Assembly (NCBI GenBank): GCA_017640485.1
Contig: JAEPQP010000003.1
Coordinates: 1 to 57,857, forward strand
DNA length: 57,857 nucleotides
Reading direction: 5' to 3'
From: Phycisphaerales bacterium
GTDB taxonomy: Bacteria > Planctomycetota > Phycisphaerae > Phycisphaerales > UBA1924
Shown here: positions 5,197 through 57,301 of the stretch, piece after piece
Layout: the number at the start of each line of letters is the position of its first letter
Position numbering within the stretch: the first letter of the stretch is position 1
Made by a program: the position numbers and the translations under genes
The notes under the pieces: model-generated
Told to the model about the DNA's origin: nothing
The model's database searches: none
The model's input: only the letters and a program-made list of their open reading frames with translations

Positions 5197-5836
5197 CGCT
5201 GCTCGGCTCTCGGGTCGATTTGAGCTGGTCCATCAGCCACGCACGAGCGAATCTCCAATCGCTCGACGCGGTCGATCGAGCGATCCCGAGGATCCTCGCA
5301 GCGGTTTCTTCGTCGAGACCCCCGAAGAATCGGAGCTCGACCACCTTCGCCTTCCGCTCATCGAGCTTCCGGAGTTTCTCGAGCGCCTCATCGATCGCGA
5401 GCAGCTCCGATGGATCAAACGGGCTCTGTGCTTCTGCTTCTGCGATGGACATCGTGATCATGCACCACTCCCCGCCACGCTTGAGTCTGTTCTTGGTTCG
5501 TGCATGATCGATGAGGATACGGCGCATCACTCTCGACGCGAGCAGAAAGAAATGATCCTGCGAGCGGACATCGAGCCCATCGGTGTTGATCAGTCTGAGA
5601 AACGCTTCGTGCACCAACGCGGTTGGCTGGAGGGTGTGGTTCTGGCGCTCATTGTTCATCATCGAGCGAGCGAGCTGACGCATCTCGTCGTACATCATTA
5701 CAGAGAGTTCAGAGGCATCAATCCCCTCTGATCCGGTCGAATCGAGCCCGAAGAACGCCCGCTCTGAGAGTCCAGAACTGGACCAATCCGAGAGCAATCT
5801 CGTCGCGTGGTCCCTCGATTCTGAGTCAGAGTACAT
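5189..5836 (-). CDS. ECF-subfamily RNA polymerase sigma factor (planctomycete type)
   Basis: 215 residues from the ATG at 5836. Region 2 includes LVHEAFLRLIN and ASRVMRRILIDHARTKNR. Region 4 is EKLRKLDERKAKVVELRFFGG followed by the helix-turn-helix EETAARILGIARSTASSDWRF, split here only for length. This is the planctomycete ECF family that typically sits beside a Ser/Thr kinase; no separate anti-sigma gene is present. Longer starts at 5845 and 5905 are in frame, but a TACAAT hexamer 7 nt before 5836 and the lack of a Shine-Dalgarno favour this start. The stop overlaps the kinase start by 8 nt. A direct regulatory link to the beta-helix gene on the other strand is possible but unproven. Confidence 0.9.
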   Translation of the reverse strand: MYSDSESRDHATRLLSDWSSSGLSERAFFGLDSTGSEGIDASELSVMMYDEMRQLARSMMNNERQNHTLQPTALVHEAFLRLINTDGLDVRSQDHFFLLASRVMRRILIDHARTKNRLKRGGEWCMITMSIAEAEAQSPFDPSELLAIDEALEKLRKLDERKAKVVELRFFGGLDEETAARILGIARSTASSDWRFARAWLMDQLKSTREPSSDG

Positions 5837-5843
5837 GCCGTCC

Positions 5844-5849
5844 ATTGTA
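5844..5849 (-). promoter_or_regulatory. -10-like TACAAT, leaderless start of ECF sigma gene
   Basis: TACAAT on the minus strand lies 7 nt before the ATG at 5836. It partly overlaps an alternative ATG (5845). No purine-rich ribosome-binding site precedes either start. No convincing -35 is visible at 16-18 nt. Confidence 0.5.
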
Positions 5850-6018
5850 CGAAAATTCGCTCCAATCACCAGATTCGATCCGCCCGGAAGACTGAATTGC
5901 CGCAATTTCTATCTTCTATCGGGCGCAGTTCACGCCATTCACGCTGAATCTGGTGTGCATCTCTGGATGCCTTGTACATCGCCATTCCACACACCCCCTG
6001 ATTCGAAGGGAATCACAC

Positions 6019-7437
6019 ATGAAAGCCTCCAAACGATCACTGCTCACGGCATTCGCCGCTTCTGCTCTGGCAAGCACAGCAGGAGCAGCCACCATCACCG
6101 TCGGGCCGAGCCTGACAGACTTTGACTACATCACCATCACCGCCGCGATCAGCGCTGCGGTCGACGGCGATGTCATCGAGATCGCTCCGGGTCTCTACCC
6201 TGAGAACCTCTCCATCTCCAGCAAGGACCTCACACTCCGGAACGCGGGCGGCGGCACCGTCACGGTGTTCGGTCAGGATCTTGGCAAGTGCCTGGTGATC
6301 ACCGGTGGTTCCACCGATGCATTTGTTGAAGGGATCACCTTCACCAGAGGATTCTCGACCACCGCTGGCGCGGGAGTCTCAATCGAAGGCGGCGCCCGCG
6401 CCGACATCACCGACTGCATCATCGAGAACAGCATGAACACCGGTGTCGGTGGCGGACTCTACATGTCCGGCGGAGGCACCATCACCCGGACCATCATCCG
6501 AGACAACCAAGCCGTGGGGAATGGTGGCGGGATCTACCTCATCGGATCGCTCCAGAAAAACTTCATCGATTGCACCATCGAAAACAACACCGGAGTCGAG
6601 GGCGGCGGTCTCGCCTACGACGCCTCGGGTGACATCATCGACATCATCGGATGCACCTTCAAGGACAACACCGCAACTAACCGGGGTGGCGCGATCACGG
6701 TCCTCGGCGGGAGTTCCTCAGCGGGGGTTGTCGAAGCGGAGAACTGCCGGTTCCTCAGCAACAGAGCCGACACCGCCGGGGGCGCGGTCTGGGTCTCCGA
6801 TCGTGATATCTTCCGCGCGTTCAACACCATCTTCATCGAGAACTCCGCCGGCGATGACGGCGGCGCCATCCGCAACGAGCAGATCGTCGATCTGATCAAC
6901 TGCACGATGGTCAACAACGAAGTCGATACCGAAGGACGCGGCGACACTTTCAGCACCATCCGCTCAGACGCGAACACGATCCTGCTCAACTGCATCGTCG
7001 TCAACGAATCCGCAGACTCGCACTTCAGCATCGGGGACTACCTCCCCACTTACTCCCTGCTCCCAGAAGCACCGAGCGGGACTCCGGATTCCAACGGCAA
7101 CTTCAACGCGGATCCGATGTTCACTGATGCACTGATGAACGACTACACCCTCGCCGCAGGATCACCCGCGATCGACGCCGGGAACTCACGCGGCGGGCAC
7201 GGCGGGATCAATGTCCTCGACATCATGACCGATCTCAACGACGATGTCCGCAACCTCGATGACCAGGACACTCCCAACACGGGTATCTCAACCTGGGAAC
7301 TCTGCGTTGATCTGGGCGCGTATGAGTACCAGCCATCAAACGCTCCTGCGTGTCAAGCGGACCTCAACGATGACGGCATCCTCGACTTCTTCGACATCTC
7401 CGCGTTCCTGACCATCTTCAGCTCCGGATGCCCATAA
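6019..7437 (+). CDS. Secreted right-handed beta-helix protein with GC-type dockerin-like C-terminus
   Basis: 472 residues. A Sec signal peptide (MKASKRSLLTAFAASALAS ... AGA) is followed by a long stretch of parallel beta-helix rungs. Repeated Asn/Gly-rich turns such as GGGLYMSGGG, IIRDNQAVGNGGG and CTIENNTGVEGGG have the pattern of pectate-lyase-like/polymorphic outer membrane folds. The C-terminus (CQADLNDDGILDFFDISAF ... GCP) has one calcium-loop-like DLNDDGILD and a terminal Gly-Cys-Pro. This is the dockerin-like sorting or anchoring motif seen on many planctomycete exoproteins. GAAGGGA precedes the ATG at 6019; the in-frame start at 5953 would destroy the signal peptide. No catalytic residues are evident, so a polysaccharide-binding or surface role is a guess. 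A strong terminator follows. Confidence 0.85.
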   Translation: MKASKRSLLTAFAASALASTAGAATITVGPSLTDFDYITITAAISAAVDGDVIEIAPGLYPENLSISSKDLTLRNAGGGTVTVFGQDLGKCLVITGGSTDAFVEGITFTRGFSTTAGAGVSIEGGARADITDCIIENSMNTGVGGGLYMSGGGTITRTIIRDNQAVGNGGGIYLIGSLQKNFIDCTIENNTGVEGGGLAYDASGDIIDIIGCTFKDNTATNRGGAITVLGGSSSAGVVEAENCRFLSNRADTAGGAVWVSDRDIFRAFNTIFIENSAGDDGGAIRNEQIVDLINCTMVNNEVDTEGRGDTFSTIRSDANTILLNCIVVNESADSHFSIGDYLPTYSLLPEAPSGTPDSNGNFNADPMFTDALMNDYTLAAGSPAIDAGNSRGGHGGINVLDIMTDLNDDVRNLDDQDTPNTGISTWELCVDLGAYEYQPSNAPACQADLNDDGILDFFDISAFLTIFSSGCP

Positions 7438-7475
7438 CCCATTACCGACCCGATCAATCCGAACCCTTCATGGAT

Positions 7476-7505
7476 CCCACCCGATATCGGGTGGGGTTCT
7501 TTTTT
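7476..7505 (+). terminator. Rho-independent terminator after beta-helix gene
   Basis: A perfect 20-nt palindrome (7476-7495, CCCACCCGAT / ATCGGGTGGG) is followed by a T-rich tract to 7505. It ends the beta-helix transcript. Confidence 0.9.
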
Positions 7506-7531: not shown

Positions 7532-7558
7532 CTGTACCCCAGCGAGTGCGAGTAACCG

Positions 7559-9192: not shown

Positions 9193-9198
9193 TACCGT
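9193..9198 (+). promoter_or_regulatory. -10-like TACCGT 5 nt before Nudix start
   Basis: TACCGT is followed by AGCGT and the ATG at 9204. No Shine-Dalgarno is present. An ATG further in (9234) also lacks one. Confidence 0.35.
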
Positions 9199-9203
9199 AG
9201 CGT

Positions 9204-9773
9204 ATGAGCGATGCTGCGAATATCTTGCCGGGCATGACCGAGGATCCCAAGAACTCGGCGCTGCCGTACAAACTCGCATGTCTGTGTGATCTGCGCGATA
9301 AAGATGGCCGCATCCTCTTGCTGCATCGGATCAAGGCACCCAACAAGGGTCTGTGCTCCCCGATCGGGGGCAAGCTCGAGATGCATCTCGGTGAATCCCC
9401 CGCTCAGTGCGCTCAGCGCGAGATCATGGAAGAAGCCGGGATCCATGTGGAACTCGACGATATCCGTCTGGTGGGTCTCATCGCGGAGACCGCATTTGAA
9501 GGAAAGACGCACTGGCTGCTGTTCTACTACCGCGTCATGGTCCCGGTCGAGGTCGTCGATGGGCACATGAACGAGGGTGAACTGGTCTGGCACGAACTCT
9601 CAGAACTCGACTCGCTCCCCGTCCCGAACACCGATCGAGAAATCATCTGGCCGATGGTCAACAAGCACGAAAACACAGGATCCGACGGCGGACCGGGGTT
9701 TTTCTGCATCCACATCGATTGCCGCGGTGATGAACTGAGCTGGACGATTGAGCAAGAATCGACTCCGATCTGA
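9204..9773 (+). CDS. Nudix hydrolase (MutT-like)
   Basis: 189 residues. The Nudix box is intact: GGKLEMHLGESPAQCAQREI followed by MEEAGI, matching GX5EX7REUXEEXGU with the metal-binding REXXEE glutamates. The N-terminal strand has LACLCDLRDKDGRILLLHR, and SPIGGK immediately precedes the box, as in 8-oxo-dGTPase-like NTP pyrophosphohydrolases. The C-terminal 40 residues are less conserved. Substrate is not predictable; oxidised nucleotide sanitation is the default guess. It may be read through from the upstream gene or start its own leaderless transcript at TACCGT. Confidence 0.88.
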   Translation: MSDAANILPGMTEDPKNSALPYKLACLCDLRDKDGRILLLHRIKAPNKGLCSPIGGKLEMHLGESPAQCAQREIMEEAGIHVELDDIRLVGLIAETAFEGKTHWLLFYYRVMVPVEVVDGHMNEGELVWHELSELDSLPVPNTDREIIWPMVNKHENTGSDGGPGFFCIHIDCRGDELSWTIEQESTPI

Positions 9774-11249: not shown

Positions 11250-14677
<3,428 letters not shown>

Positions 14678-18673: not shown

Positions 18674-18700
18674 TTGTGATCCGAAGTGAATTGCTAGGAT
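18674..18700 (+). promoter_or_regulatory. Candidate leaderless promoter of UbiA-like gene
   Basis: TTGTGA (18674-18679) and TAGGAT (18695-18700) are 15 nt apart; TG precedes the -10 as in extended -10 promoters. Six nt (ACCACG) separate it from the ATG at 18707. No Shine-Dalgarno. Confidence 0.5.
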
Positions 18701-18706: not shown

Positions 18707-19690
18707 ATGCTCAACTGGATCCGCAAAGCCGCACCGATGCTCAAGCTGACCCGAGTCACCACCGGTTTCGGAGCGGTCGGGAACCTCTGGTTTGTGATCC
18801 TGTGGTCCAGAACCACGCAAGGCGAGTACCTCCCCCCCATTCTCAACGAGGAACCGCTCTGGGCCGCATTGACCGGTGGTCTGCTTGTGGGTCTGGGGCT
18901 GTATGCCTTTGGAGCGGCGCTCAATGACCTGCTCGATCTGCATCGGGATCGGGCTCTGGGTACACCCGGACACCCGATCGTTGATGGATCCGCATCACTC
19001 GAACTCGCGGTGTGTGCCGTCGCTGGATCATTGATGATGGCGATCCTCGGCGCGACCTTCTTCGGAACCGGAGCCATCCTCCTGACGCTCCTGCTCTCGA
19101 TCGCGATCCTGATCTTCAACGCACTCGGGAAGTATGTCCCGGGACTCGGGATGGTCCTGCTGAGTCTGATCTACGCCGGTCACATGCTGATCCCCAATGT
19201 GTGGATGCGTTTCCTCCTGCCCGTTTGGCTCGTCATGACGCACGCGATGGTTGTGCTCGCACTGTCGCAGTATCTGGGGAGACGATCGCCACCGTTGTCG
19301 AGACGAGCCGCGATCTTTGCCGGGACTGGATGGGGGATCTGCTCGCTGATGCTCCTGTCGCTCGCTTGGGAGCGTCAAGGAACCGATGGGCTCTGGCCGA
19401 ATGTCGTCCCGATGACGGCACTCATCTATCCAGCGGCATGTGTCTTCCTCTTTGCGATATTCATCATCCGGAGAATCAGAAGATACGGCACCGGGACCAA
19501 ACTCGGTGAACGCATCTCACGCTACGGCGCGATCTGGCCAACCCTCTACGGCTGCGCTTGGCTGCTGGGAGCAGGACACCACAAAGAAGCGTGGCTTATG
19601 GGTGGGCTCAGCGCCGTCGGGTTCCTCTCGATGACCGTCCTGCGTGAGCTGTACGATCTCATCGAGCAGCCGGTTGGATATCGCTTGTAA
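18707..19690 (+). CDS. UbiA-like polytopic membrane protein (prenyltransferase superfamily)
   Basis: 327 residues with eight or nine membrane segments. The loop NDLLDLHRDRALG (N73-G85) matches the first Asp-rich, Mg-diphosphate-binding motif of UbiA prenyltransferases (NDxxDxxxD). The second Asp-rich motif expected about 120 residues later is not apparent; the region around SQYLGRRSPPLSRRAA has none. Activity on a prenyl diphosphate is therefore uncertain. No quinone or haem genes are nearby. It could act on an unusual lipid acceptor or be a non-catalytic relative. Confidence 0.72.
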   Translation: MLNWIRKAAPMLKLTRVTTGFGAVGNLWFVILWSRTTQGEYLPPILNEEPLWAALTGGLLVGLGLYAFGAALNDLLDLHRDRALGTPGHPIVDGSASLELAVCAVAGSLMMAILGATFFGTGAILLTLLLSIAILIFNALGKYVPGLGMVLLSLIYAGHMLIPNVWMRFLLPVWLVMTHAMVVLALSQYLGRRSPPLSRRAAIFAGTGWGICSLMLLSLAWERQGTDGLWPNVVPMTALIYPAACVFLFAIFIIRRIRRYGTGTKLGERISRYGAIWPTLYGCAWLLGAGHHKEAWLMGGLSAVGFLSMTVLRELYDLIEQPVGYRL

Positions 19691-21680: not shown

Positions 21681-22127
21681 TCAGCCATCCTCATTGCTGG
21701 TTTCTGAGTCCTCTGTCTCAGAAGTCATCGGCGAATCCTCATGATCCGCATGATCGTCCGATAAACCCGCGTACTGACGCCATTGTGCGACCGCTTCCAT
21801 GCGATCGGGCTGCGGAGCCGCGTGTTCATACCCGAAGGTCTGCCCTTCTCTTTTCTCGAGCGAGCGGATGGCCATCATCCGTTCGACGGAGTCGGTGGAC
21901 TCGAGCTTCTCGATGAGCATCACGAGCGATTCGCGATCGTCCTGATCCGCGGCGAGCACGATCGCGTCCACGCGCTTGTTCGGAGCCGGGGAATCGAATC
22001 CGACCTTCGGATTCGGGCATCCACCCAGTATCATTCCAACGCTCAAGAATCCGGCCGATGCGATCGGCTTGATCCAGTGCGTGTATTTCCAACCTGTCCG
22101 AAACATCCCACGATCAGTATTCAACAT
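21681..22127 (-). CDS. Hypothetical lipoprotein with HEAT-like segment
   Basis: 148 residues. A hydrophobic N-terminus ends in a lipobox (MILGGC, Cys about 37). The following region contains DDRESLVMLIEKLESTDSVE and MMAIRSLEKREGQTFGY, which resembles a pair of HEAT repeats. The tail is very acidic and Ser/Thr-rich. It lies 30 bp upstream of the RsbW-like gene on the same strand and may be its envelope partner. Function unknown. Confidence 0.72.
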   Translation of the reverse strand: MLNTDRGMFRTGWKYTHWIKPIASAGFLSVGMILGGCPNPKVGFDSPAPNKRVDAIVLAADQDDRESLVMLIEKLESTDSVERMMAIRSLEKREGQTFGYEHAAPQPDRMEAVAQWRQYAGLSDDHADHEDSPMTSETEDSETSNEDG

Positions 22128-22132: not shown

Positions 22133-22138
22133 ATGCTA
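22133..22138 (-). promoter_or_regulatory. -10-like TAGCAT 5 nt before lipoprotein start
   Basis: On the minus strand TAGCAT, then TCAGT, then the ATG at 22127. The only purine-rich stretch (AAAGG) is about 14 nt from the ATG, too far for a normal Shine-Dalgarno. Confidence 0.4.
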
Positions 22139-23933: not shown

Positions 23934-24605
23934 TCATGAACCTGTTCGAATTCGCTCAACTCGAATCCGATTCTCAAGTGCCTTCTGGTCGTTCTTCATG
24001 AAGTGTTTTCTACCATGCAGTTCGAATGTTTCGGTTTGCGACTCATCCAAGACAGGCAAACTCGTTTCGCTTTGGATCACTGATGCAAATCGTTCTGCAA
24101 ACTCATGAGTAACAAAGACTCCAAGCACCATACCTTTTGTGTCCCCGCTCAAGATGACCGCATATGCGCGTCCAAATCCTTTTGACCAGTTATCGTTTGG
24201 CCAGCTAATTTCAGCTGCAGCCAGTTTGATGACTCCGACACCATCCTTGACTGCGGGCTCCTTCTGATTTGAAAAAGTGAGCTGACCAGAGTTATCAACT
24301 TCAACCTGTACCTTCTTGCTGTAACGTATCAGTTGCAACACAAGCATCACTAGAACCACGCAGGTAGATATGACACCTACTCCGACAGGAAGCCCTTTGT
24401 ATCCTGTTTGAAACCACCATCCTAAGACACTTGCCGCGTAAATGAGCCACACAAGTACCGGAGTGAATATCAGAAGCAGAATCAAAGCTACACGAGCTTG
24501 ATATTGGCTCACTCGTTGGGTGTAACAAACTCGATCTTTCGATATGTCTGAGGGTGCTAAGGCATATGGCAGAGAACTCGTTAGTTTTTCTTGCACATCG
24601 ATCAC
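23934..24605 (-). CDS. Hypothetical two-helix membrane protein
   Basis: 223 residues from GTG 24605. The GTG overlaps the TGA of the upstream acetyltransferase gene (GTGA) and has GAGGT 6 nt before it, so translation is coupled. Two membrane helices (about 35-90 in this numbering) separate a short N-terminus from a beta-rich domain of about 120 residues, in the style of bacterial PH/YdbT-like domains, though I cannot assign a family. Codon use is clearly more A/T-rich than guaA or the acetyltransferase gene, which suggests a different origin. Confidence 0.65.
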   Translation of the reverse strand: MIDVQEKLTSSLPYALAPSDISKDRVCYTQRVSQYQARVALILLLIFTPVLVWLIYAASVLGWWFQTGYKGLPVGVGVISTCVVLVMLVLQLIRYSKKVQVEVDNSGQLTFSNQKEPAVKDGVGVIKLAAAEISWPNDNWSKGFGRAYAVILSGDTKGMVLGVFVTHEFAERFASVIQSETSLPVLDESQTETFELHGRKHFMKNDQKALENRIRVERIRTGS

Positions 24606-25180
24606 AAGTTGACCTCCGCAGTCATCCCCCACCGCTCATGATCCTCCCACACGCCCTGGATCTGCAGGTACTTTTCCGAGAAACCCTCCTGCACAAACCC
24701 CACCTTTTCCAGCACCCTTCGCGACGCACCATTGCTCGGCATGATGTTGGCGCACACGCGATGCAACCCCAATCCACCCTCATCACTGGGTGCAAAAGCA
24801 TGCGCGACCGTGAGTGAGAGCGCTTCGCTCATCAATCCCTGCCTTGCGTACTTTGATCCGATCCAGTACCCGAAGCGTCCGTTCTGGAACGGGCCGCGTT
24901 CGATGTTGCCCAGCGCGATGCGTCCCGCGATCGCGCCGGTGTCTTTCATGCACACGAGCCATCGCTGGGATTCGGGGGTGTTGTGGGTTTCGAGCTCGCG
25001 ATCGAACGCTTCGTTGCTGTAGAGGTCCAGTCCAGAAGGCGGGATGGGTTCCCAGCGTTCCAAGTGCTCGCGCGAAGAGACGCGCAGCTCCACGAACTCG
25101 TCGCGATCCGCGATGCACGGATGGCGCAGCAGCACGCGCTGCCCGATCATGACTGGGATAGGCGGGATGATCTCGGACAC
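24602..25180 (-). CDS. GNAT N-acetyltransferase (RimJ/RimL type)
   Basis: 192 residues from GTG 25180. It contains RVLLRHPCIADRDEFVELR, GRIALGNIERGPFQNGRFGY, GSKYARQGLMSEALSLTVAH with the acetyl-CoA loop, and NGASRRVLEKVGFVQEG. These are the standard order of motifs in the family that acetylates ribosomal protein or antibiotic amines. The substrate is not predictable. The start is set by TACACT 6 nt upstream; longer frames overlap the preceding gene. ATG 25150 is an alternative. Confidence 0.88.
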   Translation of the reverse strand: MSEIIPPIPVMIGQRVLLRHPCIADRDEFVELRVSSREHLERWEPIPPSGLDLYSNEAFDRELETHNTPESQRWLVCMKDTGAIAGRIALGNIERGPFQNGRFGYWIGSKYARQGLMSEALSLTVAHAFAPSDEGGLGLHRVCANIMPSNGASRRVLEKVGFVQEGFSEKYLQIQGVWEDHERWGMTAEVNL

Positions 25181-25186: not shown

Positions 25187-25192
25187 AGTGTA
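25187..25192 (-). promoter_or_regulatory. -10-like TACACT 6 nt before GNAT start
   Basis: Minus strand TACACT, then CCCAGA, then GTG at 25180. It falls in the 16-nt gap after the upstream membrane-protein stop, so the acetyltransferase may have its own transcript. Confidence 0.4.
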
Positions 25193-27084: not shown

Positions 27085-27090
27085 TACGCT
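27085..27090 (+). promoter_or_regulatory. -10-like TACGCT 6 nt before EEP lipoprotein start
   Basis: TACGCT, then TGCTGC, then ATG 27097. No Shine-Dalgarno is present. A TTGACA lies near 27033 but is too distant to pair with it. Confidence 0.4.
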
Positions 27091-27096: not shown

Positions 27097-28584
27097 ATGA
27101 TCATCAAACTCACACTCTCGCTCCTGACCCTCCTCTCAGGATGTGCGGCGACCCAACTCAGCGCCAATAGCTCCCAACCAGCAACCCCAACGCTGTCTGA
27201 CCCGCTCCCGCCACCGGTCCAAATCGTCCTCGACGGCGAGCTCGATGACTGGTATGGACAGACCGGGATCCGCGCCGATCAAGACGAGGTGTTTATCTGT
27301 TTCGAGTCCTTTGATCCTGCGCAAGCGATCCAAGCCGCGAACTTCACGACCCGGATTCGGATTGACGCCGACGATGATCGATCGACCGGCGATCGTCAGA
27401 TGTATCAAATGACCAATCCAGAGCACGACTCGAAAATCATGCTCTCGCAAGGCGTGGATCTCCGCATTGATATCTCCCCGGCCGGGAGAGAATGGGGTGA
27501 ACTCCGAGGCGGCGCCAAACTCACCTCAATCGAATCGGGCAAGTTCACCACCATCGGGCACGCGGACGCGGGGTTCTACTTCCTCCCGACCCACAACGCG
27601 CCGAAGTACGAAGCTCGGATCGATCGATCCAAACTCCCGATGCTCCAGCACGATGGTCCCGTCTCGATCGTCATCGAACACCTCGCGATCGGAGGTGATG
27701 TCCTCAAGACCCAATCATTCTCGACAACCCTCCCGACCTATCGACCCGATCCGGATTCCAACGAACCCATCACTCCAAAGCCAACACAGGGCGTGCGTGT
27801 GATGAGCACCAATGTGCTGTATTCATCGCCGCTCAAAGACCCTGATCCGTTCACCCGGATCCACAACGCGCTGGACCCCGATGTCGTGCTGTACCAAGAG
27901 TGGTTCAAGACCACGCGCGACGATGTCAACGATTGGGTCGAGGAACAACTCGGAGACGGATGGAGGCTCATCATGCCCGACGAGCGATCCGGGGTCGCGA
28001 TCGCGACGAAACTCAAAGTCGTCGAAACGGTTTCCAAGCCACTGGTTGCGCACCGGAGTGATCGACCCAGCCGGGTCGTCGCGGCGATCGTCGAATCACA
28101 CTCGCAAGACCAACTCATCGTGCTCTCGATCCACCTCAAGTGCTGCGGCGGAGCGGGTTCCGACGAGGACGCAAAGCGGATCGCACAAGCCCACCAGATC
28201 CGAGGACTCATCCACGAACTCCGCGAGGACTACCCGCATGCGGGTGTTGTCATCGGAGGTGACTTCAACCTCGTGGGTTCGCGCGAGCCCCTTGAGATGA
28301 TGATCCAAGGCATCGGGGTCGATGAACAAGACCTCGTCCCGCTCCCGACCCGCGTCATCGGGACGCAATCCATGCTCACATGGACCCAAGCGAGCAGCTC
28401 CTACACCCCGGGTCGGCTCGACTGGATCGTGGTCGATGACCATGCGTGGAAACCGATCCGATCATGGAGTCTGGATACCGAGGAACTCAGCGAACATGTT
28501 CTGGAAGCGACCGGTCTCATGCGAGAAGATTCACGGTCATCTGATCACCTCCCCATTGTCGCGGATCTGGTGCCGATCCAGTAA
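27097..28584 (+). CDS. Lipoprotein with endonuclease/exonuclease/phosphatase domain
   Basis: 495 residues. A lipobox LLSGC puts the lipidated Cys at residue 16. The N-terminal half (about 30-220) looks like a carbohydrate-binding or CBM9-like beta domain (LDGELDDWYG, EVFICFESFD). The C-terminal half is the EEP fold: RVMSTNVLYSS, DVVLYQEW with the metal Glu, GVVIGGDFNLVGS with the catalytic Asp-Asn, and RSSDHLPIVADL with the catalytic Asp-His. It could cleave nucleic acid, phosphoinositide-like or phosphodiester substrates outside the cell. The ORF extends upstream to 26767, but that part lacks coding character and overlaps YceI. Confidence 0.87.
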   Translation: MIIKLTLSLLTLLSGCAATQLSANSSQPATPTLSDPLPPPVQIVLDGELDDWYGQTGIRADQDEVFICFESFDPAQAIQAANFTTRIRIDADDDRSTGDRQMYQMTNPEHDSKIMLSQGVDLRIDISPAGREWGELRGGAKLTSIESGKFTTIGHADAGFYFLPTHNAPKYEARIDRSKLPMLQHDGPVSIVIEHLAIGGDVLKTQSFSTTLPTYRPDPDSNEPITPKPTQGVRVMSTNVLYSSPLKDPDPFTRIHNALDPDVVLYQEWFKTTRDDVNDWVEEQLGDGWRLIMPDERSGVAIATKLKVVETVSKPLVAHRSDRPSRVVAAIVESHSQDQLIVLSIHLKCCGGAGSDEDAKRIAQAHQIRGLIHELREDYPHAGVVIGGDFNLVGSREPLEMMIQGIGVDEQDLVPLPTRVIGTQSMLTWTQASSSYTPGRLDWIVVDDHAWKPIRSWSLDTEELSEHVLEATGLMREDSRSSDHLPIVADLVPIQ

Positions 28585-33092: not shown

Positions 33093-34634
33093 TCACTCAA
33101 CAAGTTCGGATAATGTTTGCCCCTGCATCGACTGACGAGCAGCAGACAAAATGGAGTCGGGGATCTTCGCTTTGGTCTGGTCTCGCAACCGATCCAGATT
33201 CGAGCCCGCATCCAGCAACTCAATCAATCCGATCTGATCACTCGGGCGCGCGAGCGTGAACGCGTCGTCGGCATCCTCGCCTTGAGCAATCAGGTTCAGG
33301 ATCCCGGCTTGCTGGAGCGCCCCCAGCAGACTCGACGCGAGCGAGGAATCAATATCCAATCCGTCCGCGAGCTGATCCGCTGTCGTGGATTTGCCCTTTG
33401 CAAACCGTTGGCCGATGTGTCCACCCGCCGCGATCATGACAAGCGGATCGAGCAGGATCGGTCTGGACTGCTCGGATTCACCGCTCAGAGCCGCGAGTCC
33501 TGTGCTGACCAAGCGCGTGAAGTTCTGGAGCGCGAAGGTCGCTTGCATACCCAATAGTACGATCACCCAGGTCACATACACCCAAAGCATGAAGAGGGGG
33601 AGGATCGCGAGCGAGCCGTAGAACTTGGTGTAGCCCGTCGCAGATTTGAGGTACATCGTGAATCCCGCTTTCCCGAGTTCCCACAAGATCGCGGCCATGA
33701 ACGCACCCGCGAGCGCTGGACGGATCTTGATCTTGGTGTTCGGAATGGTGAGATACGCCGTGAGCAGGAGCATCGTCGAGATCAAAACCGAGACCCCGAA
33801 CCCCGCGAGCGTCGCTCCGATCGCCCCTCCGCGTCCGCGATCTCCCGAGATCGAGAGGATCCAGTTTGCGAGCGCATCACCGACCAAGAAGGTCGCCGCA
33901 AGCAGCAGTGTTCCAAGCGTGAGCATCGTCCAGTACAGCATCAATCGACGCATCCATGGACGACCAGACGGAGCCGCACACAACTGATTGAACGACTTCT
34001 CGATCTCGATCAGCATCGACATCGCGGCATAGATGAGCACGATCATTGAAGCGATCGCGATCCACCCCGTCGGGACATTGCGGATCGAGGTATTGACCCG
34101 ATTGATCAGGTTCGAGATCAGTTCTTCGATGTTGTTGGCGCCCTCAGCGCCCGCCGACTCTGAGTCTTGCTGATCGACATACGGCAACACCGCAACCAGA
34201 GAATCTTCATCCTCTGAAGTTTCGGTCAACTCTGCTGATTGGACATCATCATCCGCGATCGAACCCGGATCGGCTTGAGTTGGCTGACGGGTATCGGGAG
34301 TCGTTTGTGGCTCTGTCGGTGTTGTGGAATCAGGCTCAGTGATTACCGGCGCGATCTGCGAGATGCCCGCGTAGTCGAGCACGCGACGAACACCCGAATC
34401 GATCTCGTCTTCTGAAACAAGCGATCCGAAGATCAACAGACTGATCGCCATGACCGGGATGATCGAGAAGATCGTCCGGTACGACATCGCCGCGGCCATG
34501 CGTGGGATCTGCGAGCGATACAACCCACCGATCCCCAAACGACCCACAGCAACCAGACGCGCCCATTCCTCGCTCCACCGATCGGCCGATGCTTCGGGTT
34601 CTTTCGGGGTCGGGTTGGTCGGTTCGTCGTTCAG
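33093..34634 (-). CDS. YihY/BrkB-family membrane protein, probable CTG start
   Basis: 513 residues if translation starts at CTG 34634, which forms CTGA with the rluB stop and has GAAGGA 6 nt upstream. The first standard start is GTG 34547 (484 residues), but the 29 codons in between read as ordinary protein (NDEPTNPTPKEPEASADRWS then EEWARLVAV) and no ATG/GTG/TTG lies in frame before them. BrkB core: PRMAAAMSYRTIFSIIPVMA, YWTMLTLGTLLLA, AFMAAILWELGKAGFTMYL, SLAILPLFMLWVYVTWVIVLLG (split only for length). About six membrane helices are present. An acidic Thr/Gln-rich periplasmic insert (about 90-170) and a winged-helix-like C-terminus follow. Function of the family is unclear. Confidence 0.85.
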   Translation of the reverse strand: MNDEPTNPTPKEPEASADRWSEEWARLVAVGRLGIGGLYRSQIPRMAAAMSYRTIFSIIPVMAISLLIFGSLVSEDEIDSGVRRVLDYAGISQIAPVITEPDSTTPTEPQTTPDTRQPTQADPGSIADDDVQSAELTETSEDEDSLVAVLPYVDQQDSESAGAEGANNIEELISNLINRVNTSIRNVPTGWIAIASMIVLIYAAMSMLIEIEKSFNQLCAAPSGRPWMRRLMLYWTMLTLGTLLLAATFLVGDALANWILSISGDRGRGGAIGATLAGFGVSVLISTMLLLTAYLTIPNTKIKIRPALAGAFMAAILWELGKAGFTMYLKSATGYTKFYGSLAILPLFMLWVYVTWVIVLLGMQATFALQNFTRLVSTGLAALSGESEQSRPILLDPLVMIAAGGHIGQRFAKGKSTTADQLADGLDIDSSLASSLLGALQQAGILNLIAQGEDADDAFTLARPSDQIGLIELLDAGSNLDRLRDQTKAKIPDSILSAARQSMQGQTLSELVE

Positions 34635-35725
34635 TGTCTGTCCTTCGGCGTGTTCTCGCGTCGTTTGCGTGGAGCGGATCGTGGACCCGACCCGGTGACC
34701 GGCCCATCCGTTGATTGGGAAGCACGGTTGATTGCGTTCTTGATCGCACGCCTGCGGACCCCCTGAGCGGGTCCAGAACGCGGATCGACATACGGTACCT
34801 TCGGCTTAGAACCCCCCCGATTTGACGAAGAATCGGGATGTTCCGTGAGTTTCATCGCCGCGGATTTCTTGAGCGCCTTGATCTCATCACGCGTAAGTTC
34901 GCGCCACGCCCCTCGTGCGACCCCTTTGAGCTGAACAGGACCCATCGCGACGCGCTCGAGCTTGCGGACCGGGAATCCGACAGCCGCGAGCATGCGCCGG
35001 ACCTGACGATTCCGTCCCTCACGCAGCGTGAGTTCCATCACGGTGCTGTGCTGATCCTGAGCGATCAGTTTGATCTCGACATGCGCCGTGCGCTTGGCGC
35101 CGCGCGTCTGACCCTCACTCCGCTGCGCGAGGAAGATCCCGCGTTCGAGTTCTTGGATCGCTTCCTCGTCGAGTTTGCCCTTGACGGTCACGCGGTAGGT
35201 CTTGGGGACGCCGTAGCGCGGGTGGGTGAGCCGATTCGCGAGCTCGCCGTCATTAGTGAGTAGGATGAGCCCGACGGTTTCGTAGTCCAATCGACCCACT
35301 GGGAACAACCGCGCCGCGGCGGGGTGATTCACCAGTTCGGTCACGGTTTTTCGGTCATACCCCGGTTCATCCTTCACGGCACTGAGCGTGCGGGGGGGCT
35401 TGTTGAGCATGACATACAACAGACGCTCAGACTGGGGGAGTACCTTGTTCTGAACGACGATACGATCAGCGGTTGGATCCACCCAGATCGGCAGATCAGT
35501 CTCGACCTTGCCGTTGACGGTGACCTCCCCCGCTTCGATGAGCGCCTCGCACGCTCTGCGCGATCCGACCCCCGCATCAGCCATCACGCGCTGGAGACGC
35601 TCGCCTCGGCTTGCGTCGCGCAGGTTCGCGACTTCCTTGGAGACGCGAGCGCCCGCGCGTCGCGATCCCGACCCTGAGGAGCGTGGGTTCTGAGATGAGC
35701 TTCGTTTGTTGGGTGATCTGGACAC
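34631..35725 (-). CDS. rluB: 23S rRNA pseudouridine synthase, RluB/RsuA family
   Basis: 364 residues from GTG 35725. After a Ser/Arg-rich N-terminal tail come the S4 RNA-binding domain (RLQRVMADAGVGSRRACEAL) and the RsuA-type catalytic domain with VGRLDYETVGLILLTNDGEL (catalytic Asp), plus EGRNRQVRRMLAAVGFPV. It would isomerise a uridine in helix 89 of 23S rRNA (E. coli U2605). The C-terminal 80 residues are a basic low-complexity extension. TAGACT lies 5 nt before the GTG; an alternative start is GTG 35776. It overlaps the downstream BrkB gene. Confidence 0.9.
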   Translation of the reverse strand: MSRSPNKRSSSQNPRSSGSGSRRAGARVSKEVANLRDASRGERLQRVMADAGVGSRRACEALIEAGEVTVNGKVETDLPIWVDPTADRIVVQNKVLPQSERLLYVMLNKPPRTLSAVKDEPGYDRKTVTELVNHPAAARLFPVGRLDYETVGLILLTNDGELANRLTHPRYGVPKTYRVTVKGKLDEEAIQELERGIFLAQRSEGQTRGAKRTAHVEIKLIAQDQHSTVMELTLREGRNRQVRRMLAAVGFPVRKLERVAMGPVQLKGVARGAWRELTRDEIKALKKSAAMKLTEHPDSSSNRGGSKPKVPYVDPRSGPAQGVRRRAIKNAINRASQSTDGPVTGSGPRSAPRKRRENTPKDRH

Positions 35726-35730: not shown

Positions 35731-35736
35731 AGTCTA
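35731..35736 (-). promoter_or_regulatory. -10-like TAGACT 5 nt before rluB start
   Basis: Minus strand TAGACT, then CTGAG, then GTG 35725. It supports the shorter start over 35776. Confidence 0.4.
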
Positions 35737-42505: not shown

Positions 42506-42991
42506 TTACAGACCGCCGATACACAAAAACCCGATTACACCAAGCGCGAAGATAAGCAAGATCATCGAAAGTGCGCCATAGCCATCTCTTACACGATCTT
42601 GATGCCGATTATAAAACGGGAGACGACTGTCTTCGTTCGCGTACAAGCGAGATCGGATCAGCAAGTTCAAACCGGCAATGACAGCGATGCCGACCGAGAC
42701 TGCGATGCGGCTTGGCCATTGGATCTGATTCTGTGTAACCAACACGACCAATGCAATGATGCCGATCGCGGCACTCAGTACGAACGAGATCTCTTTATAC
42801 ATGCCGTACTCAATATCTTCAACCTTGAGGTATGAATCAAGATCTGCTTGAAGTTGATCGGCTGTACCTAAACGCAGTTTCTTGCCGCACTCAGAGCACC
42901 GGGCTTTCTTTAAACCACGAAGGTTGTAGCTACAGTGGGGACAAGCCACATCGTGACTCTCGAAAAACTGCCTCTGACGAAGATTCAGCAT
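42506..42991 (-). CDS. Zinc-ribbon membrane protein (CxxC...CxEC type)
   Basis: 161 residues from ATG 42991. The N-terminal CPHCSYNLRGLKKARCSECG is a zinc ribbon of the planctomycete type (two Cys pairs around Y.L.GL). After a charged linker there are three to four membrane helices. The same ribbon occurs in the larger protein ending at 55910. Codon use is A/T-richer than gspE. The longer frame to 43045 would overlap the divergent acetyltransferase gene. Function unknown. Confidence 0.72.
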   Translation of the reverse strand: MLNLRQRQFFESHDVACPHCSYNLRGLKKARCSECGKKLRLGTADQLQADLDSYLKVEDIEYGMYKEISFVLSAAIGIIALVVLVTQNQIQWPSRIAVSVGIAVIAGLNLLIRSRLYANEDSRLPFYNRHQDRVRDGYGALSMILLIFALGVIGFLCIGGL

Positions 42992-42997
42992 GAGTCC

Positions 42998-43003
42998 AGT
43001 ATA
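42998..43003 (-). promoter_or_regulatory. -10-like TATACT 6 nt before zinc-ribbon gene
   Basis: Minus strand TATACT (5 of 6 to TATAAT), then GGACTC, then ATG 42991. No Shine-Dalgarno. Same hexamer and spacing as the other zinc-ribbon gene (57289). Confidence 0.55.
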
Positions 43004-43032
43004 TCGTTCACTCTGCAGACGAGGAGTGAACC

Positions 43033-43629
43033 ATGAACCGATCAAAACCTATGCAAACCCAACCCATCACGCTTTCAAGTAGCCTTATTCGACTTGAACC
43101 CATCGACTTCTCCCACTGTGATGATCTTGTCGAAGCACTCGATGACCGAACCTTTCACTACATGCCGATGCGATCTTCAGTACGCACCAAGAGCGAAGTC
43201 CGCAGATACATCGAGTTCCAGCAGCGACGGACCGACACGATCGCGTACGCTGTGATTGACCAATCCACCGGAAGAGCAATCGGTTCAACCAGCTACATGA
43301 ACATCCGCGCCGAGCATTACGGGCTTGAGATCGGTTCGACTTGGATCACCGCATCAGCGCGAGGCACCAAGATCAACCCATCCATGAAGTACCTCATGCT
43401 CAAGCACGCGTTCGAAGAACTCGGCGCGATCCGTGTGGAACTCAAAACGGATGCACGCAACGTACAGTCACGGGCCGCGATCCTCAAGCTTGGTGCAGTG
43501 TTCGAGGGTTTGACCCGCAACCACCTCATCATGCCCGACGGTCACTACCGGGATTCCGCGGTGTACTCGATCATCCCGGACCAATGGGAATCAGTCTCCA
43601 CACAGTTGCTCGAACGCATCAATGCTTAA
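43033..43629 (+). CDS. GNAT N-acetyltransferase (RimJ/RimL type)
   Basis: 198 residues. It contains IRLEPIDFSHCDDLVEAL, YAVIDQSTGRAIGSTSYMNI, the acetyl-CoA region WITASARGTKINPSMKYLML, and NVQSRAAILKLGAVFEGLTR, as in RimL-like enzymes that acetylate N-termini or small amines. GGAG precedes the ATG. The K-INPSMK loop departs from the usual Q/RGxG form, which is common in the RimJ branch. Monocistronic, followed by a strong hairpin. Confidence 0.88.
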   Translation: MNRSKPMQTQPITLSSSLIRLEPIDFSHCDDLVEALDDRTFHYMPMRSSVRTKSEVRRYIEFQQRRTDTIAYAVIDQSTGRAIGSTSYMNIRAEHYGLEIGSTWITASARGTKINPSMKYLMLKHAFEELGAIRVELKTDARNVQSRAAILKLGAVFEGLTRNHLIMPDGHYRDSAVYSIIPDQWESVSTQLLERINA

Positions 43630-51364: not shown

Positions 51365-52414
51365 CTACGAAACCCGCTCCATGGTCTTGGCGCTGCTCAG
51401 CTTCAGCGCCAGATCGATCGCGTGCGCCGTTGATCCCGGATCCGCGATCCCCTTACCCGCGATGTCAAACGCCGTCCCATGATCCGGAGAAGTCCGGACC
51501 ACATCCCCCAACCCCAGCGTCACATTCACGGCCATATCCCGCTCGAGCAGCTTCACAGGAATCAAACCCTGATCGTGGTACATCGCCACCACCAGGTCAT
51601 ACTTCCCCTCCATCGCGGGACGATAGATCGTGTCCGCCGGGAACGGTCCCTCCACAATCATCCCCGTTCCACGCGCCAGATCCATCGCAGGCTTGATGAG
51701 CCGCTGCTCCTCATCGCCCATCAATCCGTCCTCGCCCGCATGCGGGTTCAATCCGCACACCGCCATGCGTGGACGCTTGATCCCCAGATCCAGACACGCT
51801 TGATGCCCGAGATCAATCGCTGTGTGCACCTTCCCGATCGTGAGCACATCGCGGATGTCGTTGAGCGCGATGTGGACCGTTGCGAGGACGACCCGGAGTT
51901 TGTCCCCCACAAACATCATCGCAAATCGGCGCTCGCCGAGGGTCTTGGCGATCAACTCCGTATGTCCCGGGTAGTTCTTCCCCGCCATCGACCACGCGAG
52001 CTTATTGATCGGACCGGTCACAATCCCCTGCGCTCTGAGCGGATCACTGGGATCACGCTGGGTATCACGGATCGCTTCCATGACCCAGTGGTAGCTCATC
52101 GCTCCCGAGACCCCGTCTGCTTTGGGAGCCATCGAGAGATCGACCCCCTCATCATTCATCTGCGGATCCGAATCCAGCAACACGACCGATTTGGAATCAA
52201 TCGTCGAGACCAACGGCGAACGCGCATCGACCTGCCACCAGAACGGCTCAACCCCGCAGACCTGCGCCGCGTGGTGCATAACCTGCGCCGATCCATGGAT
52301 CAGAAACCGCCCGCTCTTGCGACGGGATTTATCAGCAAGCGCGCGGACCAAGACCTCCGGCCCGACCCCGCCAGGGTCACCCATCGAAACCGAAATGGTT
52401 GGGAGCAGACTCAT
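51365..52414 (-). CDS. pdxA: 4-hydroxythreonine-4-phosphate dehydrogenase
   Basis: 349 residues. Family motifs: SMGDPGGVGPEVLVRAL, VTGPINKLAW, PGHTELIA, CGLNPHAGEDGLMG, MYHDQGLIPVK and TSPDHGTAFDIAGKG. The His residues of these motifs bind the metal. It acts in DXP-independent-lyase-type pyridoxal phosphate synthesis (PdxA/PdxJ route). It starts 39 bp after pheA on the same strand. TACAAT lies 6 nt before the ATG and no Shine-Dalgarno is present. Confidence 0.97.
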   Translation of the reverse strand: MSLLPTISVSMGDPGGVGPEVLVRALADKSRRKSGRFLIHGSAQVMHHAAQVCGVEPFWWQVDARSPLVSTIDSKSVVLLDSDPQMNDEGVDLSMAPKADGVSGAMSYHWVMEAIRDTQRDPSDPLRAQGIVTGPINKLAWSMAGKNYPGHTELIAKTLGERRFAMMFVGDKLRVVLATVHIALNDIRDVLTIGKVHTAIDLGHQACLDLGIKRPRMAVCGLNPHAGEDGLMGDEEQRLIKPAMDLARGTGMIVEGPFPADTIYRPAMEGKYDLVVAMYHDQGLIPVKLLERDMAVNVTLGLGDVVRTSPDHGTAFDIAGKGIADPGSTAHAIDLALKLSSAKTMERVS

Positions 52415-52420: not shown

Positions 52421-52426
52421 ATTGTA
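52421..52426 (-). promoter_or_regulatory. -10-like TACAAT 6 nt before pdxA
   Basis: Minus strand TACAAT (5 of 6 to consensus), then TGGGTC, then ATG 52414. It lies in the 39-bp gap after pheA. Confidence 0.5.
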
Positions 52427-55022: not shown

Positions 55023-55367
55023 ATGTCCACCATCACCAAGCCCAGCATCTCCCCACCCAGCGTGCGTGCTCACAACGCGAAGCAACCGACGATGACCGAA
55101 TCCAGCTTGGACAAAGCACAGATCCTCTCCCAGACCACCAAACGACGCGACGAAGCAACCAAACTCCTCACTTCGCTCCTCGAAGCCAAACGCGTCTCCG
55201 AACGCAACCTCGCATCGATCCATCAGGACGACCTCCTCAAGAGAGTGACCGGAAACTCCTCGATGGACAACGCGATCGCTTCGACCCGCAAGCTCATCGA
55301 CTCGTTCAACCGCGTGATCGATGATCTCCGCCGGAACCTCAACGACGACGAGCTCTCGCTCTCCTGA
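55023..55367 (+). CDS. Small helical hypothetical protein
   Basis: 114 residues. The first 25 are disordered (Ser/Thr/Pro-rich). The rest is one long, charged, probably coiled-coil stretch (SLDKAQILSQTTKRRDEATK, LTSLLEAKRVSERNLASIHQ). No signal peptide, metal site or known family. GGAGG lies 7 nt before the ATG and a good promoter stands upstream, so it is likely well expressed. It is 56 bp upstream of dut on the same strand. Confidence 0.7.
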   Translation: MSTITKPSISPPSVRAHNAKQPTMTESSLDKAQILSQTTKRRDEATKLLTSLLEAKRVSERNLASIHQDDLLKRVTGNSSMDNAIASTRKLIDSFNRVIDDLRRNLNDDELSLS

Positions 55368-55411
55368 TCCATCGCGATCCTTCTCAAATCCACTCCCTAC
55401 GCTCCGATGCC

Positions 55412-55417
55412 TATCCT
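55412..55417 (+). promoter_or_regulatory. -10-like TATCCT 6 nt before dut
   Basis: TATCCT, then CCCGGC, then ATG 55424. No Shine-Dalgarno is present. The hexamer lies in the 56-bp gap after the preceding ORF. Confidence 0.4.
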
Positions 55418-55423
55418 CCCGGC

Positions 55424-55924
55424 ATGACGATCCCTCCATCCACGCAGAGCAGCCCCGCTACTGGACAATCAACCGCGACCGTCCGCTTCATGAAGCTCGA
55501 CGACAACGCGACCATCCCGCAGTACCAGACCCAGCTCGCCGCGGGACTCGATCTCGCCGCGTGCCTGCCCCGTCATGACTGTGCAGCGACAGTGACCGTC
55601 GAGCCGGGGGACATCGTCAAAATCCCGCTCGGATTCGCGTGCGCCATCCCCCCAGGATTCGAGGGTCAGGTCCGACCCCGCTCCGGACTCGCAACCAAGT
55701 ACGGCCTGAGCGTCCCCAACGCGCCGGGAACCGTCGATGCAGACTACCGAGGCGAGATGTTCGTCGCGCTCATCAACCTCGGCCGCAAACCAATCGACAT
55801 CACCCACGGCATGCGCATCGCGCAGCTCATCATCGCACCGGTCTCGCACGCCAACATCATCGAGGTCGACTCCCTCGACCAAACCCAACGCGGCGAAGGC
55901 GGCTTCGGCTCAACCGGACTCTAA
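55424..55924 (+). CDS. dut: dUTP diphosphatase
   Basis: 166 residues. All five trimeric dUTPase motifs are visible: AAGLDLAA, RPRSGLATKYGL, PNAPGTVDADYRGEMFV with the catalytic Asp, GMRIAQLII, and the C-terminal arm RGEGGFGSTG. It hydrolyses dUTP to dUMP. About 20 extra residues precede the usual N-terminus. The 3' end overlaps the convergent membrane-protein gene by 15 nt. Confidence 0.96.
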   Translation: MTIPPSTQSSPATGQSTATVRFMKLDDNATIPQYQTQLAAGLDLAACLPRHDCAATVTVEPGDIVKIPLGFACAIPPGFEGQVRPRSGLATKYGLSVPNAPGTVDADYRGEMFVALINLGRKPIDITHGMRIAQLIIAPVSHANIIEVDSLDQTQRGEGGFGSTGL

Positions 55925-57289
55925 TCCCCACCCCTCAACCTCAATCACACGCTCAAGATCAATCGTCTTGATCCAATCCGGCTCTTGCTCGAAAGTCCCC
56001 TCTCCCTCTTCGTCCCAAGCAAAGCTCTCTATATTCTGAAGATCAGTCAACACCAACACCACACGTGCGCGGACAACCACTCTTCCAGCTTGGGTAACGG
56101 CGAACGACAAGCGCGGCTGATCTATCTCAAAGCTACTTGTTGCAAACCGCTCTAACCGATCCTGAATCAGACTGATCCATGGCCGGGGATCTTCGCTCCC
56201 ACCGTGCTGTTCAAGTTCAGGATCGACAACAAACCCGCGAAAGAAATAGGTGGGAACCAGACTTCCAGAAGCAAGGGATGGCAAACTTGATTTCAACGCC
56301 ACTTCGATCGATTGACCAATCTTCACTGTCTCCGGGCATGAAAGCTCAATCGGTGGTAAGCCCTCCATGATCGCATTCAGCTGATCGGGCTGCAAACTCC
56401 CATCAAGATAACACGCAACGAGCCAACCCCGCTGCGTTGATCCCACCCAATCATCTTGACTCTGTTCAATCAGCGAGTCGATCAGTGCCTTCTTCTCTTC
56501 GATGGTCATGGGTTCTGAAATCAACTGTGCGAACGCCTGTTCGTCCCCGCTGAAAAGTGTACTGAGCGCCCCCCGCGGCATCACGCTGTACAGAACAGCG
56601 GGCTTCGCAAAGCTCAGGTACGTCAGCGATCCACCTAAGAGAATGGTGACCACCCCGACCTGCCAGAGCCAACCCCAGCGAACTCTGGGTCGATCAGTGG
56701 TGTACGACTCATCAAGGATCGACACGCCGCACTCTGGACACATGCAAGGCAGCGTAAGACCCGTCAGTGGATACGAGCAGCGATCACAGCTGATCTGTCC
56801 GGGTTCACGAGCTCGCACACTGAGCACCATCAACACAATCCCAGCATAGAAGATGTACAAACTCAACGACATCACTGTGCCAGAGAAATCGAATCCCGAC
56901 ATCAGCAGAATCTGACTCAGCAGGATCATCGCGATGATGAGCATGTAGAAACGGATGTTGTCGCGGAGCGGAATATCCCAAGGAACCACACGAAGCGCAT
57001 CACGCTGCAATCGAGCATCCTGCGATTGAGAGGAAGGCTTCTGAATTTCTTTGCGTGCAAAAGACGAGACCCCAACCCACGCGATCAGCGTACAGCCTAA
57101 GAAAGCAAATCGCATTGCGTATCCGAGATTTCCCACGATGACCACGATAATCATGACCAGCATCATCCCGATGCACCAGCTATAGCCATGGCAGACCCGA
57201 CGATTCATCTTCAATCGATTTCGATTGATCCGCGGCCGAATCTTGGGGATCGGTTCTCCAATCACAATATCAGGGTGGTGCTGGGTCAC
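55910..57289 (-). CDS. Zinc-ribbon membrane protein with large C-terminal domain
   Basis: 459 residues from GTG 57289. Four membrane helices occupy about 40-165. The zinc ribbon CDRCSYPLTGLTLPCMCPEC follows at about 175, then another helix (about 215-235). A soluble domain of about 220 residues follows, with beta-rich C-terminal part (LSFAVTQAGRVVVRARVVLV). The ribbon matches that of the 161-residue protein ending at 42506. Codon use is A/T-richer than dut. No known enzymatic motif. TATACT precedes the GTG by 6 nt. Confidence 0.72.
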   Translation of the reverse strand: MTQHHPDIVIGEPIPKIRPRINRNRLKMNRRVCHGYSWCIGMMLVMIIVVIVGNLGYAMRFAFLGCTLIAWVGVSSFARKEIQKPSSQSQDARLQRDALRVVPWDIPLRDNIRFYMLIIAMILLSQILLMSGFDFSGTVMSLSLYIFYAGIVLMVLSVRAREPGQISCDRCSYPLTGLTLPCMCPECGVSILDESYTTDRPRVRWGWLWQVGVVTILLGGSLTYLSFAKPAVLYSVMPRGALSTLFSGDEQAFAQLISEPMTIEEKKALIDSLIEQSQDDWVGSTQRGWLVACYLDGSLQPDQLNAIMEGLPPIELSCPETVKIGQSIEVALKSSLPSLASGSLVPTYFFRGFVVDPELEQHGGSEDPRPWISLIQDRLERFATSSFEIDQPRLSFAVTQAGRVVVRARVVLVLTDLQNIESFAWDEEGEGTFEQEPDWIKTIDLERVIEVEGWGLESG

Positions 57290-57295
57290 GCGTAG

Positions 57296-57301
57296 AGTAT
57301 A
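57296..57301 (-). promoter_or_regulatory. -10-like TATACT 6 nt before zinc-ribbon gene
   Basis: Minus strand TATACT, then CTACGC, then GTG 57289. No Shine-Dalgarno. Confidence 0.5.

Follow-up and report, generated by a model that had tools for sequence, protein, structure and literature searches.

Our results suggest that a Phycisphaerales bacterium expresses part of its genes from leaderless mRNAs. The window analyzed here, the first 57,857 nucleotides (nt) of contig JAEPQP010000003.1 (assembly GCA_017640485.1), contains twelve genes in which the hexamer TANNNT stands 5-7 nt before the start codon. The same arrangement precedes 112 of the 821 starts sampled from its genus, where about 17 would be expected. 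We consider it likely, with a probability of roughly 0.85, that these hexamers are sigma70-type -10 boxes that make the transcription start (+1) coincide with the start codon, so that leaderless mRNAs exist alongside others led by Shine-Dalgarno (SD) sites. An earlier note on this stretch had proposed widespread leaderless transcripts, and sequence statistics and evolution both support that proposal.

The starts were sampled from 1.05 Mb of three genomes of one genus: that of the window (G000, 246 kb with the window included), G006 (180 kb) and G007 (620 kb). The whole of G000 amounts to 2.89 Mb in 250 contigs and was analyzed as stretches; the GC content of the organism sampled is about 57%. 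A purpose-written gene caller chose the start codon by coding potential and start-codon type and ignored the upstream sequence. Three sets were used: the full set of 821 starts, an earlier subset of 523, and a set of 804 for the ranking of patterns. We call spacing the number of nt between the hexamer and the start codon, and signal a hexamer at spacings 5-7. An SD-like tetramer is AGGA, GGAG or GAGG at about 4-20 nt from the start.

The positional peak expected by the earlier note is present and sharp at 5-6 nt, and it is specific to the strand, to the reading frame and to promoter-bearing genes. TANNNT occurs 5, 46, 55, 12, 12 and 5 times at spacings of 4, 5, 6, 7, 8 and 9 nt in the full set, against a mean of 5.8 per position at 14-44 nt. 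The earlier subset gave 32, 41 and 9 at spacings 5, 6 and 7, with about 3.7 per position farther upstream. This peak is not circular, because the starts were set from coding potential alone. It is found in each genome: 26/192 starts in G000, 27/142 in G006, and 27/187 and 32/300 in two batches of G007. Among the 64 patterns of the form XY...Z, TA...T ranks first at spacings 5-6 (100 occurrences for 11.4 expected, n=804); the second, GG...A, has 48 for 20.2 expected, and SD-like patterns come after TA...T. In the same 804 starts, the hexamer was found 46, 54 and 11 times at spacings 5, 6 and 7, and its reverse complement 13, 3 and 3 times. When the search was opened to every in-frame ATG or GTG between 60 nt ahead of the called start and 30 nt beyond it, 151 of the 821 genes had the signal. 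It precedes 152 of 1398 in-frame start codons but only 19 of 1185 out-of-frame ones, and this last rate (1.6%) bears out the earlier estimate that a chance match should occur at a few percent of starts.

The signal is also placed where a promoter is expected, at the heads of transcription units, and is rare inside operons. It was found in 69 of 262 divergent genes and in 59 of 222 genes separated by 20-120 nt from an upstream gene on the same strand (128/484 when pooled), but in only 6 of 147 genes with a same-strand gap shorter than 20 nt.

All twelve hexamers listed in the earlier note are present in the window with the letters and spacings given there: 6 nt in eight genes, 5 nt in three and 7 nt in one. 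The gene names are those of that note; the frames were translated, and families were not searched. The hexamers, all -10-like, are the following:

5844-5849, minus strand: TACAAT, 7 nt before ATG 5836 of the ECF sigma gene (5189-5836); in a G007 homologue at 58% identity, which may be a paralogue, TACAAT lies 5 nt from GTG.
9193-9198, plus strand: TACCGT, 5 nt before ATG 9204 of the Nudix gene (9204-9773); G006 orthologue with TACCGT at 5 nt.
12794-12799, plus strand: TAGCAT, 6 nt before GTG 12806 of the MscS-type channel gene (12806-14677); G006 orthologue with TAGCAT at 6 nt, GGAGG not kept.
18695-18700, plus strand: TAGGAT, 6 nt before ATG 18707 of the UbiA-like gene (18707-19690); G006 orthologue with TACCAT at 6 nt.
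22133-22138, minus strand: TAGCAT, 5 nt before ATG 22127 of the lipoprotein gene (21681-22127); G006 orthologue with TAGCAT at 6 nt.
25187-25192, minus strand: TACACT, 6 nt before GTG 25180 of the GNAT gene (24602-25180); in the G006 orthologue, TAGAAT at 6 nt from an ATG that lies one codon farther upstream.
27085-27090, plus strand: TACGCT, 6 nt before ATG 27097 of the EEP-domain lipoprotein gene (27097-28584); G006 orthologue with TATCCT at 6 nt.
35731-35736, minus strand: TAGACT, 5 nt before GTG 35725 of the rluB-like gene (34631-35725); G006 and G007 orthologues with TACACT 5 nt before GTG.
42998-43003, minus strand: TATACT, 6 nt before ATG 42991 of a Zn-ribbon protein gene (42506-42991); no orthologue among the loci compared, and not called by the gene caller.
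52421-52426, minus strand: TACAAT, 6 nt before ATG 52414 of pdxA (51365-52414); 15 of 17 other genomes have TANNNT at 5-7 nt from an in-frame start.
55412-55417, plus strand: TATCCT, 6 nt before ATG 55424 of dut (55424-55924); 15 of 19 other genomes have TANNNT at 5-7 nt from an in-frame start, whose own position shifts.
57296-57301, minus strand: TATACT, 6 nt before GTG 57289 of a Zn-ribbon membrane protein gene (55910-57289); in a G006 homologue at 37% identity, TATACT lies 7 nt from ATG and overlaps a TACTTT at 5 nt.

By chance, about 1.4 genes of the window should carry such a hexamer (estimated for 52 genes and about 1.7 candidate starts per gene; the caller found 50 genes), against the twelve listed. 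The statement that all twelve lack an SD site holds for ten, which have no tetramer within 20 nt, and fails for two. The MscS gene has GGAG and GAGG (within GGAGG) ending 2 and 1 nt ahead of its GTG, and the UbiA-like gene has AGGA within the hexamer TAGGAT itself. In the G006 orthologues of both genes the SD-like strings are lost and TA...T is retained. In six of the twelve genes the start chosen by coding potential differs from that of the earlier note by 3-41 codons, and the Zn-ribbon gene at 42991 is in addition uncalled. We favor the starts of the earlier note because they are conserved in homologues. The Zn-ribbon gene at 42991 is the weakest of the twelve, and single sites such as this one may be wrong.

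In the same region (42506-43629), this gene on the minus strand and an open reading frame (ORF) on the plus strand, which possibly starts at 43033 and has GAGGAG upstream, would have their starts back to back, 41 nt apart; the caller used neither start.

Evolutionary conservation provides a second line of evidence. Among reciprocal-best orthologue pairs, the signal was present in both genes, only in the first, only in the second, or in neither in 8, 1, 2 and 29 pairs between G000 and G006, in 4, 2, 2 and 26 between G000 and G007, and in 13, 3, 1 and 52 between G006 and G007. In the 25 pairs where both genes have it, identity reaches 0.68-0.80 at the three middle letters of the hexamer, the three letters before it and the one after it, none of which is fixed by the search, against about 0.4 farther upstream. 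Homologues could be read for eleven of the twelve genes. Each of the eleven has one or more homologues in which TANNNT precedes an in-frame ATG or GTG by 5-7 nt, often with different middle letters or a shifted start codon; those of the ECF sigma gene and of the Zn-ribbon gene at 57289 are distant. The broadest comparisons are those of pdxA, where the exceptions among the other genomes are G015 and G019, and of dut, where they are G014, G015, G017 and G019. Hexamer and start codon have shifted together in several relatives, where the start is displaced by 3-48 nt from its position in an ungapped alignment with the window; the least certain of these matches, 45-48 nt away, are pdxA of G017 and dut of G002 and G010. 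When several start codons are scanned per gene, the rate of 1.6% per start codon translates into a chance rate of a few percent per genome.

The comparison of PdxA also revealed, in five relatives of the class that belong to family f9 (G024, G050, G056, G063 and G069), a match split into two pieces 54-72 nt apart in one open frame. This suggests that about 20 residues were inserted close to profile position 167 in this lineage specifically.

The coexistence of two initiation modes, also claimed earlier, is supported by an intact anti-SD tail of the 16S rRNA and by SD-like tetramers in 297 of the 821 genes. The window's genome retains GGATCACCTCCTTTCT, and GGATCACCTCCTT is found in nine of ten other loci, the tenth ending before that point. 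The preservation of this tail implies that the SD mode is intact. Tetramers are distributed very unequally between the two classes of genes: they occur in 8 of 112 starts with the signal (the other 104 lack one) and in 289 of the 709 other starts.

Under the mechanism that we propose, the hexamer would be the -10 element of a sigma70-type promoter lying 5-7 nt from the start codon. The usual distance from a -10 box to +1 is 6-7 nt. RNA polymerase would begin on the A or G of the ATG or GTG and produce an mRNA without a 5' leader, and ribosomes would initiate on the bare 5'-terminal start codon. The two modes would run in parallel: leaderless transcripts are possible for genes that open a transcription unit, and other genes are SD-led. 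What we infer is where the 5' ends lie, that the housekeeping sigma factor recognizes the hexamer, and which route the ribosomes take. Initiation on leaderless mRNAs is attributed, in the available text of two studies (PMC12340547, PMC10783764), to 70S ribosomes or to 30S subunits that bring the initiator tRNA.

The composition of the hexamers and of their surroundings gives a few more clues. Letters 1, 2 and 6 were set by the search and the middle letters were free; the consensus is TA[CT][AC][CA]T, and the commonest hexamers are TACACT and TATCCT (10/81 each). The third letter is C in 42%, T in 37% and A or G in 21% of 151 cases. Counting from the hexamer, T is almost excluded at -1, directly before it (1%), A is rare at -4 (8%) and G is favored at -3 (43%); a classical extended -10 (TGn) was looked for upstream of the hexamers and not seen. 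One-letter variants of the hexamer revealed no sharp additional class: patterns xA...T without the initial T occur 42 times at spacing 6 for 28.9 ± 5.7, and GA...T is elevated across spacings 3-7, perhaps owing to SD sites. The observation that good -35 boxes are mostly absent is right for TTGACA: with gaps of 16-17 nt allowed, it turned up in 3 of 109 signal genes.

Expectation-maximization with a variable spacer proposed a weak CTGCAT-like -35 element at spacer 17, with a log-likelihood of 47.4 against 10.3-19.5 in 12 single-letter shuffles. Yet the model scores 47-49 at the proper distance and up to 50.8 at wrong distances (9-13), there from GATC-like words, and we do not claim this element because the fits at wrong distances are equally good. 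Words containing GATC (TGATCC, CTGATC) recur upstream of the -10 boxes at no fixed distance.

Four other explanations might account for the hexamers. The one that survives best, although we consider it unlikely, is a very short leader, with transcription starting a few nt before the start codon or just inside it. Spacings of 5-7 nt, combined with the 6-7 nt from a -10 box to +1, leave an uncertainty of 1-2 nt, and a spacing of 8 nt does occur. But the peak lies at 5 and 6 nt and has subsided by 9 nt, and in pdxA and dut the distance stays at 5-7 nt while the start codon shifts. So short a leader would in any case be called leaderless in most usage.

It is less probable still that the hexamer is a translational element, such as an A/U-rich docking site for the ribosome or for protein S1, lying within a genuine 5' leader. 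The available text of Nakagawa 2017 points out that S1 sites, rather than leaderless promoters, may underlie an AT-rich bias at about -20 to -10. Yet genes internal to operons, which also need translation signals, rarely have the hexamer (6/147), and its free middle letters are mostly C/T, A/C and A/C, so it is not A/U-rich. An artefact, in which start codons were picked to fit the motif, seems very improbable and is refuted as a full explanation. There were many candidate starts to choose from, and half of the twelve starts are not the choice of coding potential, with one gene uncalled; but the peak persists with starts set blindly to the upstream sequence and nearly vanishes at out-of-frame codons, and the hexamer is kept in at least one homologue of all eleven genes that could be compared. 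Finally, hexamers such as TAGCAT open with a stop codon, but the idea that the pattern is made by the TAG or TAA of upstream genes is refuted by the third letter, A or G in only 21% of cases, and by the paucity of signals in genes with same-strand gaps below 20 nt.

Leaderless transcription from TANNNT promoters is our preferred reading, and several observations weigh against it or blur its extent. Among the genes found, the caller agreed exactly with annotated starts in 26/37 cases in E. coli and in 27/38 and 18/31 in two Deinococcus plasmid stretches, so the fractions given here are rough. At 420 of the 821 starts we found no SD-like tetramer and no hexamer at 5-7 nt; half of the starts thus rely on some other signal, and these are partly operon-internal or miscalled starts. 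The scarcity of SD sites in signal genes is weaker independent evidence than it appears. Genes with TANNNT at 8-14 nt, a position that likewise falls within the SD window, had a tetramer in 5/35 cases, those with TANNNT at 5-7 nt in 8/110, and those without it at 5-7 nt in 282/694; the scarcity is partly mechanical, because the hexamer and the SD site need the same letters. Genes with a same-strand gap above 120 nt carry the signal in just 14 of 173 cases, below the expectation of a simple promoter model. The reverse complement ANNNTA is also elevated close to starts (15.8 per 1000 positions at spacings 3-5, against about 4-7 elsewhere), and its density at these spacings is 18.1 per 1000 where the same-strand gap is below 20 nt; stop codons belonging to upstream genes may be the cause of this rise. 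A -35 box, if there is one, is weak. The sole hints of one are a G at -21 from the hexamer, which matches the TTG of a 17-bp spacer (44% against 25%, p 5e-7; 50 upstream columns were examined), and an identity of 0.68 at -20/-19 in the 25 orthologue pairs, against about 0.4.

The excess of TANNNT farther upstream of SD-led genes is only mild. In the 184 SD genes with an upstream gap above 60 nt and no hexamer at 5-7 nt, TANNNT is mildly elevated at 24-65 nt, most of all at 36-41 nt (19.0 per 1000 positions, against 8.2 for the reverse complement). With nothing excluded, its density at 24-65 nt is 12.5 per 1000 in 191 SD genes, seven of them carrying the signal as well, against 9.0 in 340 non-SD genes; the reverse complement reaches about 5-8. 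Such an excess is consistent with a single -10 hexamer serving at two distances, short of proof, and would predict leaders of about 30-50 nt for part of the SD-led class.

The spread of the signal was surveyed by the same method in samples of 80 kb (50 kb for controls). We give counts at 5-7 nt with the expected number in brackets; the p-values were uncorrected and the samples small. The genus had 13/63 (1.2) and 7/64 (1.3), both samples being part of the main set. Another genus of the family had 3/70 (1.1) and 5/63 (0.6), and other families of the order 8/61 (1.8), 5/61 (0.9) and 4/48 (0.3). Counts were heterogeneous in other orders of the class, with 2/47 (1.3), 0/59 (2.1), 6/57 (6.7), 5/60 (1.0), 3/65 (1.0), 9/63 (1.4) and 3/56 (5.1), and in other classes, with 2/48 (1.8), 2/66 (3.2), 2/63 (1.1), 2/51 (0.3), 3/63 (0.7), 6/59 (4.8), 6/65 (0.9) and 10/59 (4.1). 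These counts indicate that the signal is clear in the genus, present in the order and patchy in the class and phylum.

Among the controls, E. coli had the signal at 0/46 called starts (3.2 expected) and at 1/56 annotated ones. Deinococcus had it at 3/41 (0.4) and 3/34 (0.4) called starts, and stretches of Deinococcus with annotated starts showed a peak at 6 nt, as in this organism, with 8/43 and 4/32 at 5-7 nt. A further set, 32 of 80 named loci picked by title and length, left out other loci titled Phycisphaerae; those included gave 18/190 (3.8), although bin titles may err, and one was titled Singulisphaera and one Planctomycetaceae. In this set the signal was at or below expectation in loci of Paraburkholderia (0/74, 1.7 expected), Bacilli (2/77, 4.8), Verrucomicrobiota/Kiritimatiellota (1/58, 1.1) and those titled as anammox (1/24, 1.9). 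A single stretch of Nonomuraea had 0/14 starts with the signal and is too small for a control.

If our reading is correct, annotation of Phycisphaerae that expects SD sites misplaces many starts, which the -10 box would pin down, and an exact list of predicted transcription starts follows. Leaderless expression, best known in Deinococcota and Actinobacteria, would then reach a class of Planctomycetota. Its patchiness inside one phylum would open the gain and loss of the leaderless mode to study, as a natural comparison in which the anti-SD ribosome is kept intact.

Leaderless genes with TANNNT have already been described in many phyla. The earlier note held that they were undocumented in Phycisphaerae. 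This stands insofar as our literature search, combining leaderless with planctomycete or Phycisphaera terms, turned up no paper in which Phycisphaerae or Planctomycetota are described as leaderless by the TANNNT motif; it must be tempered by Nakagawa 2017, whose survey, in its available text, classes Planctomycetes (one genome) as 'leaderless mRNA and/or RPS1'. The phenomenon is thus known, and Phycisphaerae look like a new taxon for it at the class level, although the supplements of PMC12340547 may include planctomycetes. On a wider scale, GeneMarkS-2, as quoted in the available text of StartLink (PMC9581028), predicts leaderless transcription for 21.6% of bacterial species.

Actinobacteria such as Mycobacterium and Streptomyces have TANNNT promoters, and their leaderless transcripts have been mapped experimentally; the organism studied here would share both and belongs to an unrelated phylum. 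It also resembles the TA-led, leaderless class of Zheng 2011 (PMC3160421), described in 207 of 953 bacterial genomes, where TANNNT about 12 bp upstream of the start replaces the SD site; unlike here, the groups with leaderless genes named in the available text of that paper include no planctomycetes. As for the SD-led genes, the available text of PMC10783764 assigns to Phycisphaerae an ordinary anti-SD and a functional SD in 46% of mRNAs, to be compared with 297/821 by our looser count.

The closest parallel is with Deinococcus, according to the available text of Zhong 2025 (PMC12340547), which cites de Groot 2014 on this genus and also scanned reference genomes across the bacterial domain. 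There the hexamer acts as the -10 region, about 6-7 bp ahead of the ORF and mostly with no -35; it interacts with RpoD, and its function depends on letters 1, 2 and 6. The Deinococcus work used reporters, letter changes, RpoD binding and RNA-seq and counts nearly one third of ORFs, whereas ours relies on sequence alone, in a different phylum, and counts 112/821 starts. TACACT is the commonest hexamer there and joint first with TATCCT here, and some annotated starts are misplaced there too. Both systems have in common TANNNT close to the ORF, in most cases no recognizable classical -35, a ribosome-binding motif alongside, and conservation in orthologues.

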